Positions 48,468 through 56,850 of a stretch of 64,000 nucleotides of DNA are shown in pieces. The notes beneath the pieces were generated by a model. The model did no database searches and was not told the origin of the DNA. It saw only the letters and a program-made list of their open reading frames with translations. The translations under genes and the position numbers were made by a program. This DNA is from Alphaproteobacteria bacterium (GTDB taxonomy: Bacteria > Pseudomonadota > Alphaproteobacteria > Caulobacterales > Hyphomonadaceae). The stretch covers positions 1 to 64,000 of the forward strand of contig JAHJSB010000042.1 in assembly GCA_018830285.1 (NCBI GenBank), given 5' to 3'. The first letter of the stretch is position 1. Every line of letters begins with the position of its first letter.

Positions 48468-49865
48468 CTAGTCTGCGCCGACCGCAAGATCGCTGGTCAG
48501 CTGCGGTCCGATGGGCGCATCCGGGTTTGACGGCTTGAAGGGGTTGTAAGCCTCCTTCTTCATCGGTTCGATCTCTTCTCTCAGCTTGTTCACCTGCGCC
48601 AGAAGGTGTGCGGCCACGCCAGGCTGTTCCCGCATGAAGCTGAAACGCTCTGACGGGTCTGTTACCAGATCAAACAGCATGGTGACGCCATAGACCTCCA
48701 GCGGCACATAAAAGTTACGGTAGTACTGGTTCAGCACGAGTTTGAACCGATCGTTACGTACACTGACGATATCATCGCCATTGAAGAAAAAGAGGGCTTC
48801 GTGGACTGGCTCGACCGCACCGGACAGCAATTCCGTGAGGTCCCGGCCATCAATCACGCGGTCGTCCGGCAATTCTGCGCCCGAAATTCGCGCGATCGTC
48901 GGCAGCAAATCAATCGCCATGGTCATCTGATCGCTAACGCTGCCGGGCGCAATTTTGCCAGGCCAGCGCGCGAGCATCGGCACGCGATAGCTGCCCTCAT
49001 AAGTGCCACCCTTGCGGTCACGCAAGCCGCCTGTATCGCCTTCAAACCAGGGGCCATTATCACTGGTGAAGATGATCAGTGTATTGTCCGCAATACCGGC
49101 GCGATCAACCGCATCAAGTATCTGCCCGACACCGCGATCCAGTTCCTCGACCACGTCGCCATAAAGCCCGGCTTGAGATTGGCCCGCAACCTCATCAGGC
49201 ACCAGCAGCGGCGCATGCGGTGCATTCTCCGCCACATAGAGAAGAAATGGCTGATCAGCATGTGCCGCAATGAATTCTTCTGCCTCAGCCGAATACATCC
49301 GGGTCAGCTGCTTCTGGTCTGCCGGGCTTTGGATGACAGTCTTGTCTTTGTAAAGATCGAATGGTTTCATGTCGTTTGAATAGGCAACGCCGTAGAAGGA
49401 ATCGAATCCCTGATTTGTCGGCCAGAACGCATCATAGTGTCCAAGGTGCCATTTTCCGATCATCTTCGTCGCATAGTCGCGCGTCTTGACGATCTCGGCG
49501 ATCGTGATTTCACTCGCGGGCAGCCCGTCAGTCGATTGCGGATAGACAACATGCTGCATGCCGGTGCGGACCGGATAGCGCCCCGTCAGAAGAGCCGCGC
49601 GTGACGGTGTGCAGACATTTGAACCGGCATAGAAACTCGTCAGCTGAATGCCTTCCCGGCCAATCCGGTCGATATTGGGCGTCTTGATGAGCTCATTGCC
49701 ATTCAGGCTGATATCCGCCCACCCCAGATCGTCCGTCAGGATGATAATGATGTTCGGGCGGTCAGATGCAGGCGAGTTCGTACTGGCATCGTTTACGTCC
49801 GCCACCGATGAACATGCAGAAAGTGACAATATTGATGTGAGAACAAGTGTCCGCAGATGGATCAT
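48468..49865 (-). CDS. Lipoprotein sulfatase
   Basis: 465 residues. Lipobox LSAC (C18) followed by the sulfatase catalytic module: metal-binding DD45-46 (ILTDDLGWAD), the formylglycine-forming CTPSRAALLTGR (C85), KWHLGH, and a late metal site FTSDNGPW. The C85-T-P-S-R form needs conversion of cysteine to formylglycine. Anchored in the periplasm, it removes sulfate esters from a glycan or glycoside. It follows GH3 by 18 bases and is part of the sulfated-glycoside locus. Confidence 0.93.
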   Translation of the reverse strand: MIHLRTLVLTSILSLSACSSVADVNDASTNSPASDRPNIIIILTDDLGWADISLNGNELIKTPNIDRIGREGIQLTSFYAGSNVCTPSRAALLTGRYPVRTGMQHVVYPQSTDGLPASEITIAEIVKTRDYATKMIGKWHLGHYDAFWPTNQGFDSFYGVAYSNDMKPFDLYKDKTVIQSPADQKQLTRMYSAEAEEFIAAHADQPFLLYVAENAPHAPLLVPDEVAGQSQAGLYGDVVEELDRGVGQILDAVDRAGIADNTLIIFTSDNGPWFEGDTGGLRDRKGGTYEGSYRVPMLARWPGKIAPGSVSDQMTMAIDLLPTIARISGAELPDDRVIDGRDLTELLSGAVEPVHEALFFFNGDDIVSVRNDRFKLVLNQYYRNFYVPLEVYGVTMLFDLVTDPSERFSFMREQPGVAAHLLAQVNKLREEIEPMKKEAYNPFKPSNPDAPIGPQLTSDLAVGAD

Positions 49866-49883
49866 GAGACAGCCTTTTCAAAG

Positions 49884-52001
49884 TTAGAGTTTCACCGAAA
49901 CCTGCAGACGTTCAGCCATCAGGCTCGAGCCACCGACAAGAATCCCGTGCGCGCCCGACTCCGTCTTCCACGTTGCCGTCTCAGGGTCGTACCAATTGAG
50001 GCCATCAGCCGGAACCGTGAAGCGAATGGTCTTTGTCTCACCGGGCGCCAGCTCGACTCGCTGGAAACCACGCAAGATCTTCTTTGGACGTTCTGCGGCA
50101 ATTCCCGGCGGTGCCAGGTAGAGCTGCGCCACTTCCGTCGCCGCATGTGCGCCATCGTTGCGGACTGAAACCTGGGCAATGATGTCGCCGCCTGGCGCGC
50201 ATCGCGCGCTCAAGGCGCGATACGAGAAATCGCCGTAGGTCAGTCCATATCCAAAGCAGAATGCGGGCGCGATGCCATCCCTGTCCAGCAAGGCGTAGCC
50301 ATGCCAATACCCGTAGTCGATTGCGTCGGCATTCTTGTCGAAATGCGGATAGTGAGCTGGGTCAGAGGCGACCGTAAACGGCAACTTTCCCGAGGGACTG
50401 ACCTCCCCAAACACAAGGCGCGCCAGGGCGCGCCCACCTTCCATGCCCGAATAGAATGTTTGCAGCACAGCGCCGACCTTCGACACCCACGGGCCGAACA
50501 AGACGGCCGATCCGGCCAGCACGACGACAATCGTTCTCGGGTTTGCAGCAGACACGGCTTCGATCAGCGCGACCTGGCTTTCCGGCAGGGCGAGACTGTC
50601 GCGATCACCCCCGCGTGGTCCGTTATTGTTTCCGGCGCTCGCACCTTCAAGCGCCTCGACAATGTCGGCTGCGAGTACATCCTGACCGAGGTTCAGGTCG
50701 CCGGGAATGTATTCGCCCTCCTCATCCGCCGTGTAGCCGACGATGACCACCGCGACGTCAGCCGCAGATGCGGCCTGTGCGGCAACATCAACGTCGCTCT
50801 CATTGCCGCCCAGGATGACTTTCGATTCCCCTGCATATTCCTGCAGACCGCCAAGCGGGGTGATCGTGTAGGGGGCGCGCACGCGGGACGATCCATTGTC
50901 GCCCGTGTTGGGCAGATCCGCCAGATTTCCGAAAACCGCCACGCAGCCGACAGTCGCCAGATCCAGCGGCAACAGGTCTTCATTGCGCAACAGCACGGCT
51001 GACTTTTCAGCCACCTCCAGCGCGAGCGCCCGGTGCTGAGGCGCCGCAACGAGTTCCAGCGGATAGTCTTCCAGTGGGTCTTGCGCACAAGCGAAGCGGT
51101 AATAGGTGTTCAGGATGCGTCGACAGGCCGTATCAACAACCGATTTCGCGATCTGTCCGTTTTCGACAGCCCCGATCAGCCTGGCCGCATAATGCACCGG
51201 TTCCGGATTCTCAATATCGAGCCCCGCCACGGCGCCCCAGGGCGAGCGCACACCCATGATCCAGTCCGAGTGAACGAACCCGTCAAATCCCCATTCATGC
51301 CGCAGAATGTCCGTCAGCAGCCGCTGGTTTTCACCGCAATATTCACCATTCAGCTTGTTGTAGGCGCTCATCACTGTTGCGCAGCCAGCTTCAAGAATAC
51401 GTTTGAAATGGGGCAGGTAAACTTCCCGCAGCGCCCGTTCCTCGACACGCACATCAACTTTGAAGCGGCAGTTTTCGATACTGTTGACCGCGAAATGTTT
51501 CACGGTAGCAGCGACATTGTGGACCTGAATGCCCTCCGACAAGGCGGCCCCCATCTCGCCGAGATGGTATGAATCCTCGCCATAGGTTTCCTGCGCCCGT
51601 CCCCAGGCCGGATGACGCAGCAGGTTGACGCAGACCGCACCCGACAGGTTGCATCCCTGGGCCCTGATCTCGATACCCATGACCTCGCCGACACGTCGCT
51701 CAAGGTCTGTGTCGAAGCTGGCGCCGCGCGCCATCGTGCATGGGAACGCCGTGGACCGCCCGCGCGCGACACCGCGCGGACCGTCGGTAAAGTAGAAGGG
51801 CGGAATGCCAAGGCGCTCAACACCGCCGCCCGCACGATAGGGATCCGATCCCCATACGCCTGATGCCTTGTGCAGCGCAAAGAAGCCACGACCCGACATC
51901 ATGGCCACTTTTTCTTCAAGCGTCGCTTCGACAATTACGGAGTCGACGAGTTCGCGAATGTCTTCAGGCGTCAACCCTTTTTGGGGAGAGAAATCGGTCA
52001 A
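49884..52001 (-). CDS. Glycoside hydrolase family 3 beta-glycosidase
   Basis: 705 residues. GH3 N-terminal domain with KHFAVNSIENCRF, the nucleophile motif GFVHSDWIMG (D246), then the C-terminal domain and a fibronectin III-like tail (EVAQLYLAPP, KILRGFQRVELAPGETKTI). No signal peptide is present, so hydrolysis is probably cytoplasmic, after import by the MFS transporter encoded nearby. The size and tail match beta-glucosidases. In the receptor-GH3-sulfatase operon, with a terminator just upstream. Confidence 0.92.
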   Translation of the reverse strand: MTDFSPQKGLTPEDIRELVDSVIVEATLEEKVAMMSGRGFFALHKASGVWGSDPYRAGGGVERLGIPPFYFTDGPRGVARGRSTAFPCTMARGASFDTDLERRVGEVMGIEIRAQGCNLSGAVCVNLLRHPAWGRAQETYGEDSYHLGEMGAALSEGIQVHNVAATVKHFAVNSIENCRFKVDVRVEERALREVYLPHFKRILEAGCATVMSAYNKLNGEYCGENQRLLTDILRHEWGFDGFVHSDWIMGVRSPWGAVAGLDIENPEPVHYAARLIGAVENGQIAKSVVDTACRRILNTYYRFACAQDPLEDYPLELVAAPQHRALALEVAEKSAVLLRNEDLLPLDLATVGCVAVFGNLADLPNTGDNGSSRVRAPYTITPLGGLQEYAGESKVILGGNESDVDVAAQAASAADVAVVIVGYTADEEGEYIPGDLNLGQDVLAADIVEALEGASAGNNNGPRGGDRDSLALPESQVALIEAVSAANPRTIVVVLAGSAVLFGPWVSKVGAVLQTFYSGMEGGRALARLVFGEVSPSGKLPFTVASDPAHYPHFDKNADAIDYGYWHGYALLDRDGIAPAFCFGYGLTYGDFSYRALSARCAPGGDIIAQVSVRNDGAHAATEVAQLYLAPPGIAAERPKKILRGFQRVELAPGETKTIRFTVPADGLNWYDPETATWKTESGAHGILVGGSSLMAERLQVSVKL

Positions 52002-52051
52002 GCGTGATCCTATTGGTTTATGGTCTCGGCAACATGTTTGAACTGTAAGTC

Positions 52052-52089
52052 AAAAACCTGCCAGCCCGTAAGAGGTACAGGCCGGCAGG
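52052..52089 (-). terminator. Intrinsic terminator between the TonB receptor and GH3 genes
   Basis: Minus-strand stem CCTGCCGGCC (52089-52080), 13-base loop, GGCTGGCAGG (52066-52057) with one G-U pair, then TTTTT (52056-52052). It is 25 bases after the receptor stop and 51 bases before the GH3 ATG. It may reduce transcription into the enzyme genes relative to the receptor. Confidence 0.75.
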
Positions 52090-52113
52090 CGTCTGGGAGG
52101 AAACCTGGTTTAC

Positions 52114-54468
52114 TTAATAGTCGAGAGAGAGCTTCACGCCGAAGCTCTGTTCCGATTCAAAGGACTGGAACTGGGAATAGCCGCCCGTGTCAAATGCCTG
52201 GCCAACAATCGCTTCCACGAATTTCTCATCCGTCAGATTACGACCGAATATGCTGAGCGCGCCACGACCGTCCCAGAACTTCACACCCAGCGACGCATCG
52301 ACCAGCGTATAGGCATCCAGCACCGTGTTCGGATCGTTGGTATTGCTCGAAATCGCATCACCACGATACTGCGCACCGACCTGTACGAATGCGTCAAGGT
52401 TCTGGGTCAGGGCGAAATCATACCGGGCCAGAGCGTTGATGATCCATTCCGGCGACTGGGCGAGATCCTTGCCATTCAGGTTCTGGAATTCGCCGCGTCC
52501 ATCCGCGTTCGTATCGATGCAACCATTCGGTCCGACCGTCTGAAGCGCGTAGCAAGGCGCATCGGGAAAGTCCTGGAAGGTTGCGTGCGTGTAGGCAAAT
52601 GACGTCGACAATGTGAGGCCATCAACAGGCAACAGTGTGATGTCGCCCTCAAGTCCATACGTCTCTACGCTACCCGCATTCGTCACCGAGAAAATCGACG
52701 TGCCAGATGGTCCCGGCACGAGGGCCTGCGCCTGGAAGTCTTCGATTTCAGATCGAAATGCCGTGAAATTCGTGACCAGTCGCCCATCCATCGAAACGGC
52801 GCGGATACCTGCTTCGATCTGAACCGGCACTTCTGGTTCGACCATAGGAAGCGCGGTTCCACCGACTTGCGTTGCGTTGATCGTCAAACCCGATACGATT
52901 CCGGCCGACTTGTAGCCACGCGAGACCGTGGTGAACACGTTGACGTCATCATTGATGAAGTATTGCAGGCCAAGACGCCACACGACTGCAGTATCGTCAG
53001 TATCACCCGTCAAAGGTGATGCTGTGATGCTCTGGCCGGCGAATGGACCAACCGCGCCGGGCGTGATGCTGCGCGAGAGGCTGGCCGAAATGTCTGAGTT
53101 CAGTACGCGTAAGCCGCCAATCGCGGTCAGCTTGTCAGTCAGCGCGTACTCGGCCTGGCCAAACAGCGCCATGTTGGTTTCTTCAACTGTCGAGATAAGG
53201 TCCGTGCCCAACAGAAGACCGGGCGGCAGCGCGCCGAGCAGATTGAGGCCTGCCGTGCCGGACTGCGTATTGGTCTGATCAATTTCCTGATGGAAATAAT
53301 AGGCGCCAACCGTGTATGTCAGGGCCTGGTCGCGCGGCGATACAAGCCGGAATTCCTGACTGAACTGGTTCTGGTCCAAGTCGGCATTGTTCACGGCAAG
53401 GAATGGCAGTGGGATCAGATCCGCGTCGTTATTGTCAAAGCTTTTCCATTCACGAATCGATGTCAGCGAGACAAGGTCAAAATCGCCAAACCGCTTGTTG
53501 GCTTCAGCATATACGCCATACGATTCCATCTCCGATTCGAAGGTACCGTTGGACGCGATTTGCTTGTTGTCCGGGCCGGGCTTGATGCCAACGGACGCAG
53601 AGACCGGGCCGATGACCTGAACGCCAAACCCCAGCAATCCTGTGCCGGGTCCTGGTGACGATACGGAGCGCAGCGTCAACGCGCCTGCTGACTGGTCACG
53701 TTTGGAATAGTCCGCGCCCAGCGTCAGGTCGAATGTGTCGGAGGAATCGAATTTGAGCTTCCCGCGGACGCCGAACTCATTGCGTTCGTTGACGTCGCTC
53801 TGCGGCGCGGCCGGGTTGATATTCGTTATATAGCCGTCGCGCGTGTTATTGTATCCGCTCAGTCGCCCCTTCACACCATCGGTGATCGGGCCGGAAATGG
53901 CAGCAGACACCGATGTTTCGTTGAACGAACCATATGAAGCGTCGAATTCGGCAGCAAACTCATCTGTAGGCTGTTTGGTGACAATCGAGATAACACCGGC
54001 AGAAGCGTTCTTCCCGAACAAGGTTCCTTGTGGTCCGCGAAGGACCTCGACGCGTTCGACATCAGAAAAATCGAAGATGCCCGCACCTTCGCGCCCGAGC
54101 ACCACGCCATCGACCGCGACCGCAACGCTGCCCTCAATACCGATATTGAACAGGCTGGTACCAATTCCGCGAATGGTAGACGCCGATTGACGCGCGTTCA
54201 GGCCGGCATTGAAGCTCAGGCCCGGGGCTATGTATTGCAGCTGGTCAAAACTGTCGATCTGGCGCGCATCAAGCGCGTCCCCATCGATCGCCGTCACGGA
54301 AATCGGCACAACCTGCAGGTTCTGTTCGACACGCTGGGCGGTGATGGTCACGATGTTGAGCCGACGGTCGTCCTGTGACGACTCCTGCTCTTGCGCACCC
54401 ACTGAAGGCGCCAGGCTCGCAAACGCCATAACAGCGATGGTCGCGCCTGAAAGAAGGCGGTTCTGCAT
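52114..54468 (-). CDS. TonB-dependent receptor
   Basis: 784 residues from MQNRLLSGATIAVMAFASLAP, with a signal peptide (cut near GAQEQ). The plug domain begins VTITAQRVEQNLQVVPISVTA and contains IRGIGTSLFNIGIEGSVAV; VEVLRGPQGTLFGKNASAGVI is the plug signature. The barrel ends SEQSFGVKLSLDY. Imports a substrate too large for porins across the outer membrane. GAGG is 9-12 bases upstream of the ATG. No SusD-like partner. Its promoter carries two operators. Confidence 0.93.
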   Translation of the reverse strand: MQNRLLSGATIAVMAFASLAPSVGAQEQESSQDDRRLNIVTITAQRVEQNLQVVPISVTAIDGDALDARQIDSFDQLQYIAPGLSFNAGLNARQSASTIRGIGTSLFNIGIEGSVAVAVDGVVLGREGAGIFDFSDVERVEVLRGPQGTLFGKNASAGVISIVTKQPTDEFAAEFDASYGSFNETSVSAAISGPITDGVKGRLSGYNNTRDGYITNINPAAPQSDVNERNEFGVRGKLKFDSSDTFDLTLGADYSKRDQSAGALTLRSVSSPGPGTGLLGFGVQVIGPVSASVGIKPGPDNKQIASNGTFESEMESYGVYAEANKRFGDFDLVSLTSIREWKSFDNNDADLIPLPFLAVNNADLDQNQFSQEFRLVSPRDQALTYTVGAYYFHQEIDQTNTQSGTAGLNLLGALPPGLLLGTDLISTVEETNMALFGQAEYALTDKLTAIGGLRVLNSDISASLSRSITPGAVGPFAGQSITASPLTGDTDDTAVVWRLGLQYFINDDVNVFTTVSRGYKSAGIVSGLTINATQVGGTALPMVEPEVPVQIEAGIRAVSMDGRLVTNFTAFRSEIEDFQAQALVPGPSGTSIFSVTNAGSVETYGLEGDITLLPVDGLTLSTSFAYTHATFQDFPDAPCYALQTVGPNGCIDTNADGRGEFQNLNGKDLAQSPEWIINALARYDFALTQNLDAFVQVGAQYRGDAISSNTNDPNTVLDAYTLVDASLGVKFWDGRGALSIFGRNLTDEKFVEAIVGQAFDTGGYSQFQSFESEQSFGVKLSLDY

Positions 54469-54511
54469 TTTCGATTCCTCCCGAATGAGCCAGCTCACAA
54501 TAGCCGGTTCT

Positions 54512-54529
54512 ATTATCCAATCGGATAAT
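54512..54529. promoter_or_regulatory. Operator O2 of the glycoside locus (TonB receptor promoter)
   Basis: ATTATCC-AATC-GGATAAT, a perfect 7-base inverted repeat with a 4-base spacer. It overlaps the -10 hexamer of the receptor promoter. Confidence 0.75.
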
Positions 54530-54552
54530 ATATTCGAAGACCCCCGTGTCAA
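54525..54552 (-). promoter_or_regulatory. TonB receptor promoter
   Basis: Minus-strand perfect TTGACA (54552-54547), 16-base spacer and TATTAT (54530-54525), 57 bases upstream of the ATG. Flanked upstream and covered at the -10 by operators, so it is built for repression. Confidence 0.7.
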
Positions 54553-54555
54553 TCC

Positions 54556-54573
54556 ATTATCCGAACGGATAAC
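54556..54573. promoter_or_regulatory. Operator O1 of the glycoside locus
   Basis: ATTATCC-GAAC-GGATAAC, one mismatch between arms, directly upstream of the -35 of the receptor promoter and 44 bases (about four helical turns) from O2. Confidence 0.7.
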
Positions 54574-54590
54574 GGGTGAATTTATCCTTC

Positions 54591-55280
54591 TCAGCTGAGC
54601 CTTGGAGTTTTCGCCGCGTTTACAACGGAGTGATTGAAGAAGAGCTCGATGATCGCGTCAGCGTGGGCTTCAATCACCTTCGGATCGGAGGTGTCGATCC
54701 CGTAAATCAGCTTCACCTCATGCCCAAGCATGAACAGGTACTGCGACACGGCGACAATAATGTACGTCATCGAATGGCGGGAAATATTCGGGTAGAGACC
54801 GTTTTTTACATTCTTGTCGAACAGCCATGTGCGGCTGTCATGATCTGGCTTGATGAAATTGTCGACCGCCCACCTGAGACGGTCAGAATCGCGAATAGAT
54901 TCCTGCACCATGATTCGGGCATGCTCGGGATGGCGGGCACAATAGGCAACGTAACGGCGTATCCATGACTTGAGCTGCTCAAAGGCAGGCAGTTTGTCGT
55001 CACCTTCCGGGGGCGAGATTTCATCATGCATCCGGATGAAAAGGAATTCGACCGCAGACTTCCAGAGATTATCCTTATCGCCGAAATGATACTTGATGAG
55101 ACCATGATTGACGCCAGCGGCCGCCGCAATGTCTCGGACAGTCGCGCCTTCAAACCCGCGCTCGGCGAAAGCCTCGAGCGCACACTCGAGTATGCGCGCG
55201 CGCGTGCGGGCCTTTTGCTCAGCACGCGTCTCAGTTTTCTCGATCTTTTGAGCCGGCACCAATTTCTTTGTTTTGCCCAT
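54591..55280 (-). CDS. TetR family regulator of the glycoside locus
   Basis: 229 residues. An N-terminal basic tail (about 1-25), then the helix-turn-helix ARILECALEAFAERGFEGATVRDIA and GVNHGLIKYHFGDKDNLWKSAV; the C-terminal ligand domain is helical. Lies between the receptor and transporter genes on the same strand. The same type of inverted repeat stands before this gene, the receptor and the transporter, so it is the likely repressor of all three. Ligand unknown. Confidence 0.9.
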   Translation of the reverse strand: MGKTKKLVPAQKIEKTETRAEQKARTRARILECALEAFAERGFEGATVRDIAAAAGVNHGLIKYHFGDKDNLWKSAVEFLFIRMHDEISPPEGDDKLPAFEQLKSWIRRYVAYCARHPEHARIMVQESIRDSDRLRWAVDNFIKPDHDSRTWLFDKNVKNGLYPNISRHSMTYIIVAVSQYLFMLGHEVKLIYGIDTSDPKVIEAHADAIIELFFNHSVVNAAKTPRLS

Positions 55281-55290
55281 TCCGGAACCT

Positions 55291-55317
55291 TTTCATTATC
55301 TGTTCTGGATAATGAAA
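55291..55317. promoter_or_regulatory. Operator O3 upstream of the TetR gene
   Basis: TTTCATTATC-TGTTCTG-GATAATGAAA: perfect 10-base arms with a 7-base centre, 11 bases from the tetR start. The core arms ATTATC/GATAAT match O1 and O2, though the spacing is one base longer. Predicts autoregulation. Confidence 0.7.
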
Positions 55318-55338
55318 TCCATTGAACCTGCCGATCCG

Positions 55339-56733
55339 TCAAGGCGTATCGTTCGTTTGGGGAACCAGGCTCCGCTTCCGGTTTCGCCAGTCAATCGCCC
55401 GAACCAGCCGCGCATGAAGGGGCTTGTCGACCGGATAAAACGCTATCAATGCCGCAGCACAAAAACTGCATGCAAACGGCACCAGCGTGCTGAGCAGACG
55501 CAAGCCCTGCACCGTGTCAGGCGCCTGCGCTTCGTTCGCCACGTAGCCAATCGCTTCGAGCAGGAATCCCAGCAATCCAATACCCAGGCCGGTCGCCGCT
55601 TTCAGCGCAAGCTGGTTCAGGCCGAACACAAGCCCTTCATCCCTGACACCTGATCGAAATTGCCCGTATTTGATTGTGTTGGGCAGCATCGACCAGAACG
55701 TCACCGCGAAGGCTGCGTTGCCAATACCCAGCATTACAAGCAGCACAAGGAATGGCCCAACGGTCGCGGGCGGCGCCGCGAAGAGCACCAATTGGGCCGT
55801 CATTCCCAAACCAGCTCCCAAGAGCCAGACCATTCGCTTCGAGAGCCAGCGCGAAGCAGCCATCCAGATCGGCACGCCCAGTGTGACTGACGCAGTCAAG
55901 GTGATCAGCGCAAGCGTGACGCTGATATCCAGGCCGGCGACGTAGAGAACATAATAGACCAGCGCTTTGCCGAAAATCGCGCCCCCCATTCCGCCAAGAA
56001 CAATGGCTGAGATCAGCAGCAGCAGGGCACGGTTCCGGGAAAGATACCGCCACAGGTCGGCCGGCGCAGATCGAAAGCCGGGAGTGAGCTCCACACGCTC
56101 ACGGGTCGCCTTGAACGTCGTCATGAACAGCGCCGTTGCAATTACCGCAAAGACGACGCTCACATAGAAAAACCCCACTTTCATGTCTCCCCCGCCAAAT
56201 CTGGCGGCGAAGGGCAGCATCACGAACACGGTGAACAGTCCGCCGGTTGCAGCAAACAGGATCCGGACACCGGCCAGCGCGCCGCGTTCACCACTATCCT
56301 GCGTAATCTTGGCCGACATGGCGCTGTAAGGCACTGACACCACGGTATAGCAGGTGCGAAACAGGATGTGGGCCGCGGCGGAAACCGCAACGACGGCGCT
56401 CGGAAACAGCAACGGCGCGGCAAACATCAAGACAAAGCTCAAGGCCAGCGGAATTGCCCCGAAAAGGATGTAGGGTCGGTAGCTGCCGAAGCGGCTCCGG
56501 GTTCGGCTCGCAATCATTCCCATCGCCGGGTCCGTCACCGCATCCCAGAACAAGGGGATCGCAAAGATGAGGCCCGCAACGGCCGGGCGTATGCCCAGCA
56601 CATCCGTATAGTAGTAGAGAAGGAAGAGGTTCAGCCCCGTATAGTAAAGGTTGAACCCGAAATCCGCGACGCCAAACCCGACGCGCTGGCCAACTCCCAG
56701 GCGGACTTTCGACGCCACACTATTCTCGCTCAT
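55339..56733 (-). CDS. GPH-family MFS glycoside transporter
   Basis: 464 residues, about twelve membrane segments. N-terminal GFGVADFGFNLYYTGLNLFLLYYYTDVLG and DAVTDPAMGMIASRTRSRFGSYRPYILFGAIP are the glycoside-pentoside-hexuronide:cation symporter signatures (MelB/XynB type). Takes up a glycoside across the inner membrane with a cation. Precedes tetR by 58 bases; the intergenic gap holds O3. The supposed substrate would then meet the cytoplasmic GH3. Confidence 0.92.
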   Translation of the reverse strand: MSENSVASKVRLGVGQRVGFGVADFGFNLYYTGLNLFLLYYYTDVLGIRPAVAGLIFAIPLFWDAVTDPAMGMIASRTRSRFGSYRPYILFGAIPLALSFVLMFAAPLLFPSAVVAVSAAAHILFRTCYTVVSVPYSAMSAKITQDSGERGALAGVRILFAATGGLFTVFVMLPFAARFGGGDMKVGFFYVSVVFAVIATALFMTTFKATRERVELTPGFRSAPADLWRYLSRNRALLLLISAIVLGGMGGAIFGKALVYYVLYVAGLDISVTLALITLTASVTLGVPIWMAASRWLSKRMVWLLGAGLGMTAQLVLFAAPPATVGPFLVLLVMLGIGNAAFAVTFWSMLPNTIKYGQFRSGVRDEGLVFGLNQLALKAATGLGIGLLGFLLEAIGYVANEAQAPDTVQGLRLLSTLVPFACSFCAAALIAFYPVDKPLHARLVRAIDWRNRKRSLVPQTNDTP

Positions 56734-56753
56734 TCGCTTCAGCCCGGCTTTTT

Positions 56754-56771
56754 GTTATCCGTTTGGACAAT
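56754..56771. promoter_or_regulatory. Operator O4 upstream of the GPH transporter
   Basis: GTTATCC-GTTT-GGACAAT, imperfect but same spacing as O1/O2. A minus-strand TTGACA is at 56790-56785, so this operator covers the expected -10 position, 21 bases upstream of the transporter ATG. Confidence 0.6.
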
Positions 56772-56850
56772 GAAAATCCGACGCTGTCAATCAACTCCGG
56801 CGCGTTTTCGCTGCAGGCGACAGGCAAGAACAGAACGCATACCCGTCTCG

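Follow-up and report, generated by a model that had tools for sequence, protein, structure and literature searches.

Which signal would switch on the uptake of a sulfated sugar compound, and does one regulator govern every step from outer-membrane import to release of the sugar? This question is raised by five neighbouring genes in a 64,000-nucleotide stretch of DNA (the window: positions 1 to 64,000 of contig JAHJSB010000042.1, assembly GCA_018830285.1) from a marine-type alphaproteobacterium of the Hyphomonadaceae with a genome of 3.56 Mb. The genes lie on the minus strand and encode, in the order of transcription, a GPH symporter, a TetR-family regulator, a TonB-dependent receptor, a glycoside hydrolase of family 3 (GH3) and a sulfatase, and related palindromes accompany them. 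We propose, with a probability of about 0.7, that they form a TetR-repressed carbohydrate-utilization (CUT)-type uptake locus for a sulfated beta-glycoside, in which uptake, desulfation and cleavage would follow one another in the order put forward in an original prediction made from the window's sequence. If so, sulfate removal and sugar release would be tied to a single repressor in alpha- and gammaproteobacteria, and a testable operator would make the regulons of apparently uncharacterised aquatic sugar loci readable from sequence.

Searches against Pfam and NCBIfam confirmed all five genes and their shared strand. The GPH gene (55339..56733, minus strand) encodes a cation symporter of the MelB/GusB type, a predicted inner-membrane glycoside importer that scored 310 bits against PF13347 (MFS_2 in Pfam) and 314.7 bits against TIGR00792, above the curated cut-off of 231.35, and is thus a member of the GPH symporter family; its closest solved relative is MelB. 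The TetR-family repressor (54591..55280, minus strand; PF00440, TetR_N) reached only E 1.4e-11 with its best solved relative. For the TonB-dependent outer-membrane receptor (52114..54468, minus strand; barrel and plug domains, PF00593 and PF07715) the ATG at 54468 is the most likely start, a mechanical open reading frame (ORF) that reaches 54552 being too long. The GH3 beta-glycosidase (49884..52001, minus strand; PF00933, PF01915 and the Fn3-like PF14310) was found, as predicted, without an obvious signal peptide and is probably cytoplasmic. Such a peptide was seen in 0 of 37 homologous sequences, judged by eye with start codons chosen by script, and D246 in the HSDW motif is invariant across 16 aligned GH3 rows. 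The expected features were likewise present in the sulfatase (48468..49865, minus strand; PF00884 and SGSH_C), a predicted lipoprotein with CTPSR at C85 and a lipobox-like LSAC. The C-x-P-x-R signature defines type I sulfatases that depend on the formylglycine-generating enzyme (FGE), and CxPSR is present in 23 of 23 listed homologues; a lipobox pattern occurs in 7 of the 23, most others look Sec-like at the N-terminus when inspected by eye, and a few start too short to be judged. Two FGE-type PF03781 matches over the cut-off indicate that a maturation enzyme is available in the source genome, where a second sulfatase also lies near an FGE-type maturation gene (G000:C52:67785-70067), a place with no near-perfect TATCC operator. 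Beside the five genes, the next real-looking long ORFs are on the opposite strand. The nearest locus from a named record is that of an uncultured Hyphomonadaceae metagenome-assembled genome (L035), with a GH3 identity of 81%.

The palindromes had been described as four repeats of ATTATCC-N4-GGATAAT. Three of them fit: O1 (54512-54529; ATTATCCAATCGGATAAT) with 0 mismatches, O2 (54556-54573) with 1, and O4, before the GPH gene (56754-56771), with 2. In the fourth, O3, before tetR (55295-55313; ATTATCCAGAACAGATAAT on the minus strand), the spacer is 5 bases long rather than 4, which had gone unnoticed; the site forms a perfect ATTATC-N7-GATAAT. Repeats with a 5-base spacer also precede tetR in L085, L117 and L118, and autoregulation of tetR may be weaker than control of the other genes. 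Since the receptor most likely starts at the ATG at 54468, O1 lies upstream of that start. The receptor promoter (54525..54552, minus strand) consists of TTGACA (54552-54547), 16 bp and TATTAT (54530-54525); the TATTAT of its -10 element overlaps O1, and its -35 TTGACA sits between O1 and O2, 3 bp from O2, which is 44 bp from O1. O4 lies downstream of another TTGACA. Consistent with the claim that the repeats cover or flank promoter elements, TTGAC is flanked on either side by an operator-like repeat (10 core bases, at most 2 mismatches) in 9 of 10 receptor upstream regions inspected, a set that includes close kin (L039, L046, L048) and has L085 as its exception. The exact TTGACA is present in 5 of those nine regions, and the repeats start 44-47 bp apart in all nine. 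Matches to ATTATCC-N4-GGATAAT numbered 4 in the window against 0.77 expected, and 0 of 100 shuffles reached 4; the fourth match, at 49728, falls within the sulfatase gene and was discarded as chance.

Two scales of search bear on whether these palindromes are real operators. Within the source genome, TTATCCN4GGATAA with at most 1 mismatch occurs at 4 places, 3 of them inside the locus, and its reversed control gives 3 matches; by count the source genome alone is therefore weak evidence, and it is the clustering that is unusual. The single off-locus site lies inside an ORF that we take to encode ribosomal protein L13, and was rejected as a regulon member. Across genomes, TATCC-N4-GGATA has 27 perfect sites in 20 loci of the same TetR group (344,414 bp), and ranks first among 1,024 half-sites, the next-best of which has 11. 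In these loci 29 reorderings of the half-site average 0.10 sites, every spacer from 0 to 10 other than 4 gives at most 1, and 0 of the 27 sites fall inside tblastn-matched genes. The 20 loci omit L057, a near-copy of L048, and include L116, whose place in the tree is unsupported; the TetRs of L044 are distant and were put in neither group, and duplicate records (L035/L084, L043/L085, L037/L115 and others) were used once, here and in the module counts. An earlier count, which gave 24 perfect sites in 20 loci with a TetR homologue, had taken both L048 and L057 as well as the sister-clade loci L059 and L069. The same palindrome was found once in 19 sister-clade loci (348,169 bp), 0 times in 17 loci with distant GH3 relatives (291,261 bp) and once in 10 loci without the TetR (L045), on a contig whose TetR appears in L111. 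Moreover, the pattern YTATCCNNNNGGATAR has 24 sites in 17 genomes against 4 for its reversed control, and the repeats are thus not scattered over unrelated genes at background frequency. Chance palindromes beside unrelated neighbours, a view that can point to the 4 versus 3 matches in the source genome, are practically out of the question given the cross-genome enrichment and the placement of the sites, a comparison that is decisive.

We also compared the occurrence of the sites with the phylogeny of the regulator. A perfect TATCC site is present in the locus for 16 of 20 rows of one group of the TetR tree (supported at only 86/92) and for 1 of 19 rows of its sister group (L102, where it lies within the GH3 match); L116 is a further carrier that stands apart in the tree. 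The link between TetR and site rests on neighbourhood, and another regulator of the same genome might therefore read the palindromes; we consider this very improbable, as site presence tracks the TetR group and the sister clades show half-sites of their own within an unchanged frame. The site counts thus strongly support, in silico, the proposal that one TetR represses the receptor operon, the transporter and its own gene through shared operators.

The module recurs along with its operators. Of 21 loci of the TetR group (the 20 counted for operators plus L057), 20 carry a GPH gene (a partial one in L116), 18 a sulfatase gene, 17 a TonB receptor gene and 17 a GH3 gene. The GH3 count is biased because many loci were found through GH3, the sulfatase and GPH counts less so, and the loci lacking a sulfatase (L087, L112, L061) each lie at a contig end. 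Gene order and strand vary among the loci, which are carried by alpha- and gammaproteobacteria (Alkalicaulis, Erythrobacter, Pseudohaliea, Haliea). TetR matches at 1e-20 occur in 27 of 105 genomes of the family; at 1e-40 the protein is rare, with matches in 3 of 385 genomes sampled from the class and 3 of 398 sampled from the phylum, the source genome included in each and at most 7 candidates scored per genome. An Acidobacteria home for the module, suggested by the probably erroneous title of L045, was rejected, as L045 probably corresponds to L111, whose genome falls in the same genus as the window.

The original prediction was silent on sites beyond the locus in relatives. Of the 24 sites in 17 genomes, 19 lie within the TetR locus and the remaining 5 all precede sugar or sulfate genes. 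One, in G330, precedes adjacent genes for an aldose epimerase and a xylulokinase. The others, all in G852, lie before divergent GH3 and GPH genes, before a gene resembling cellulases, before a TonB receptor gene with a sulfatase gene behind it, and before a sulfatase gene whose upstream region is also that of a gene for mannose-1-phosphate guanylyltransferase. The only site in G227 overlaps the beginning of a run of epimerase, xylulokinase and xylose isomerase genes that adjoins tetR; in L050, another record of this contig, xylose isomerase is over the cut-off and xylulokinase is end-truncated and below it. Xylose catabolism thus appears to stand under the same TetR operator in one genus, and since G227 and G330 belong to that genus we count this as one observation. 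Aldose epimerase and xylulokinase genes are directly preceded by a perfect operator at L118:5322-5339 and L133:2114-2131, with xylose isomerase also present in L118. In L044 an epimerase-xylB-xylA run lies behind GH3, with no perfect site, and is followed by a PhyH gene. Separately, a perfect TATCC operator adjoins a PhyH-type gene (phytanoyl-CoA dioxygenase family) at L112:301 and L116:8964.

The arrangement of sites and genes suggests how the circuit may work. The gene content, the conservation of the module and the operators with their placement are observed in silico; the direction of control (repression), the order of compartments, the inducer and the substrate are what we infer. With no substrate present, TetR dimers on O1 and O2 would bracket the receptor promoter, the -35 between them and the -10 inside O1, and TetR on O4 and O3 as well would keep the receptor-GH3-sulfatase operon and the transporter off, and tetR perhaps more weakly so. 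Basal expression would let some substrate in through the TonB receptor, the anchored sulfatase would remove its sulfate in the periplasm, and the GPH symporter would then import the glycoside, which the cytoplasmic GH3 would split, releasing the sugar. The imported glycoside, or a product of it, would free TetR from DNA. The gene content is consistent with this order, and the gene set probably does import a sulfated sugar compound, strip its sulfate and split the glycoside.

Comparison with known systems places the locus, by its gene content, within a familiar kind. As defined in the accessible part of PMC1790865, a CUT locus has a TonB receptor gene beside genes for carbohydrate-degrading enzymes, an inner-membrane transporter and a sugar-related regulator, and this is the gene content found here, the TetR being taken as sugar-related from its regulon. 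Such loci are further marked by a receptor that the carbohydrate induces and that its uptake requires. The CUT loci of Xanthomonas and aquatic Proteobacteria described there, such as the sux locus, share a TonB receptor, an inner-membrane transporter, a degradative enzyme and a dedicated regulator with the window locus, whereas the latter has a TetR regulator, a GPH porter, a signal-less GH3 and a built-in sulfatase. The closest working analogue appears to be E. coli gusRABC, a likeness that the original prediction did not draw. According to the accessible text of PMC9881133, GusR has operators O1 and O2 upstream of gusA and responds to glucuronides, and the gus/uid genes (gusR, gusA, gusB, gusC) share with the window locus a TetR-type repressor, two operators, a glycoside inducer, a transporter, a glycosidase and a membrane-associated uptake helper. 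The window locus has GH3 in place of the glucuronidase, a TonB receptor in place of GusC, and a sulfatase in addition; the likeness is one of layout and leaves operator sequences aside. GusB is itself a GPH porter and GusA a cytoplasmic GH2 enzyme. The locus is not a gus operon, as its five genes include GH3 as their sole glycosidase and no beta-glucuronidase. Sulfatase, TonB receptor and glycosidase are also common to algal polysaccharide loci; the window locus differs from sulfatase-bearing loci for carrageenan and ulvan by its TetR control and by having no endo-enzyme among the five genes. The nearest solved sulfatases, by sequence and by fold, are the human arylsulfatase A/steryl-sulfatase group (31-36% identity), whereas the window enzyme is bacterial and lipoprotein-like. 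A literature search of open PMC texts did not turn up, among the titles and starts of abstracts listed, a recognisable description of the module or the operator, and no TetR or sulfatase appears in the accessible part of PMC5507952.

A number of observations weigh against a single TetR-controlled unit for a sulfated beta-glycoside. On the regulatory side, these are the 3 reversed-control matches in the source genome, the two mismatches of O4 and the deviant spacer of O3, the absence of a perfect TATCC site from the locus stretch of four members of the TetR group (L086, L087, L047, L117; one-mismatch sites are present in L086, L047 and L117), the lack of any site in 3 of the 17 scanned genomes at that stringency (G078, G744, G848), and the sulfatase genes of G852 that lie away from the TetR locus, so that a tight five-gene unit is not universal. 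On the enzymatic side, the sulfatase model (mean pLDDT, the predicted local distance difference test, 80.9) has arylsulfatase A, GALNS, steryl-sulfatase and carrageenan S1_19 enzymes as its nearest folds, human arylsulfatase A being nearest at 35% identity, and these act on very different sulfates. The GH3 model (mean pLDDT 78.8; weak at the nucleophile and beyond it, over residues 247-269) is nearest to beta-glucosidases, and the closest solved GH3 relatives are mostly beta-glucosidases as well; its conserved D73 of DGPRGV is, we presume, of the glucosidase rather than the xylosidase type, which speaks against a xyloside. Furthermore, XylA was not found in the source genome, whose only XylB-type match is below the cut-off. 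Neither model singles out a substrate. A xylose-containing substrate is our best single guess for some relatives, because their regulon adds xylose catabolism; it is not established for the source genome, where, given the xylose gene searches, xylose serves as a lead for relatives only.

Two variants of the TetR-controlled reading differ in the substrate; they carry equal weight, and each falls somewhat short of even odds. The first, which the original prediction proposed, assumes a small conjugate that bears both sulfate and an aglycone. A GPH porter with a cytoplasmic glycosidase resembles glucuronide uptake by gusRABC (as given in the accessible part of PMC9881133), the PhyH-type oxygenase genes adjoin the operator in L112 and L116, and in one sister-clade locus the sites are surrounded by genes for a carboxylesterase, a flavin monooxygenase-like protein and an AMP-binding enzyme; no aglycone-degrading gene is among the window's five. 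This proposal had also leaned on the absence of a SusCD pair. That absence held, as the receptor scored only 59.4 bits on TIGR04056 (cut-off 368.25) and no SusD is among the five genes, but it does not point to a small conjugate, because lone-receptor loci are an established kind in Proteobacteria, set apart from Bacteroides loci in the accessible part of PMC1790865. Nor did the absence of AraC or LacI regulators stand up as an argument for such a substrate. The second variant takes the substrate to be oligosaccharides of a sulfated polysaccharide such as that of an algal cell wall, the last oligomers left after outside enzymes have acted. Carrageenan S1_19 and S1_16 enzymes are among the fold neighbours of the sulfatase, and in G852 copies of the operator precede a cellulase-like gene and two genes for sulfatases. 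The five genes include no endo-acting enzyme and only a single, signal-less GH3, which counts against it.

Beyond the TATCC group, each sister subclade has its own most frequent palindrome with a 4-base spacer, the frame NNTCC-N4-GGANN being kept. For CATCC, five loci contain 7 sites, of which 5 precede a TonB receptor; for TTTCC, six loci contain 12 sites, every one close to the start of tetR, GH3 or a receptor gene. ATTCC has 17 sites in 5 of 6 loci; only 1 of these is near a query-matched gene, and 16 are outside long ORFs, each 19-244 bp ahead of a long ORF of that locus. ORFs scanned behind ATTCC sites in L094 and L103 encode a GH43 whose C-terminal domain is of the xylosidase type, a carboxylesterase with a TonB receptor after it, and a further TonB receptor; an AMP-binding enzyme gene lies opposite the GPH gene. 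Repeated ATTCC-N4-GGAAT sites surround GPH-GH3, GH43, carboxylesterase and TonB receptor genes in L094 (5197-11937), L096, L098, L103 and L104, and sulfatase queries found no sulfatase in these five loci. The ATTCC loci may thus represent a parallel glycoside circuit. ATTCC also has a genome-wide background: in five genomes of that clade 8 of 15 ATTCC sites are in the locus; six more sites occur in five genomes not expected to use ATTCC, and the reversed control gives 1 across the ten genomes.

The half-sites change together with the regulator. In what we take, by analogy with TetR, to be the recognition helix, the His is followed by Gly or Ala where the half-site has A as its second base, and by Thr where it has T; this holds for 33 of 33 rows scored with labels assigned by hand. 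In L108 (8878-8925) two AGTCC/CGTCC-like N4 palindromes (one-mismatch GTCC), 32 bp apart, precede tetR, and the helix reads RHS instead of NHG. We lean slightly towards a TetR subfamily of mostly sulfated-glycoside loci with a fixed NNTCC-N4-GGANN frame, in which the outer two bases would switch by clade with the post-His residues (TATCC, CATCC, TTTCC, ATTCC and perhaps AGTCC; His-Gly/Ala with A, His-Thr with T, and perhaps His-Ser with G). Both G038 and G030 contain paralogues with different codes, so such a switch may keep parallel sugar circuits insulated from each other; against this stands G029, with two TetRs and TATCC at both loci (L085, L112). The code is a hypothesis and not proven, because the tree holds only 2 changes of the second base, and 3 of the full half-site; a count of pairs (1 for starred branches, 2 for all branches), in which the same label was entered as both traits, reflects the number of independent changes and not covariation. 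It is also opposed by L100, which has Gly and none of the expected sites, by the four TATCC-group loci with no perfect site, and by single copies of another clade's half-site in the window, L040, L097, L102, L103, L109 and L117. Such matched changes of helix and half-site would provide a few natural examples from which a TetR DNA code might be read. Finally, a perfect operator lies at the start region of a protoglobin/chemoreceptor-like gene at L052:11131, which suggests substrate-linked chemotaxis.

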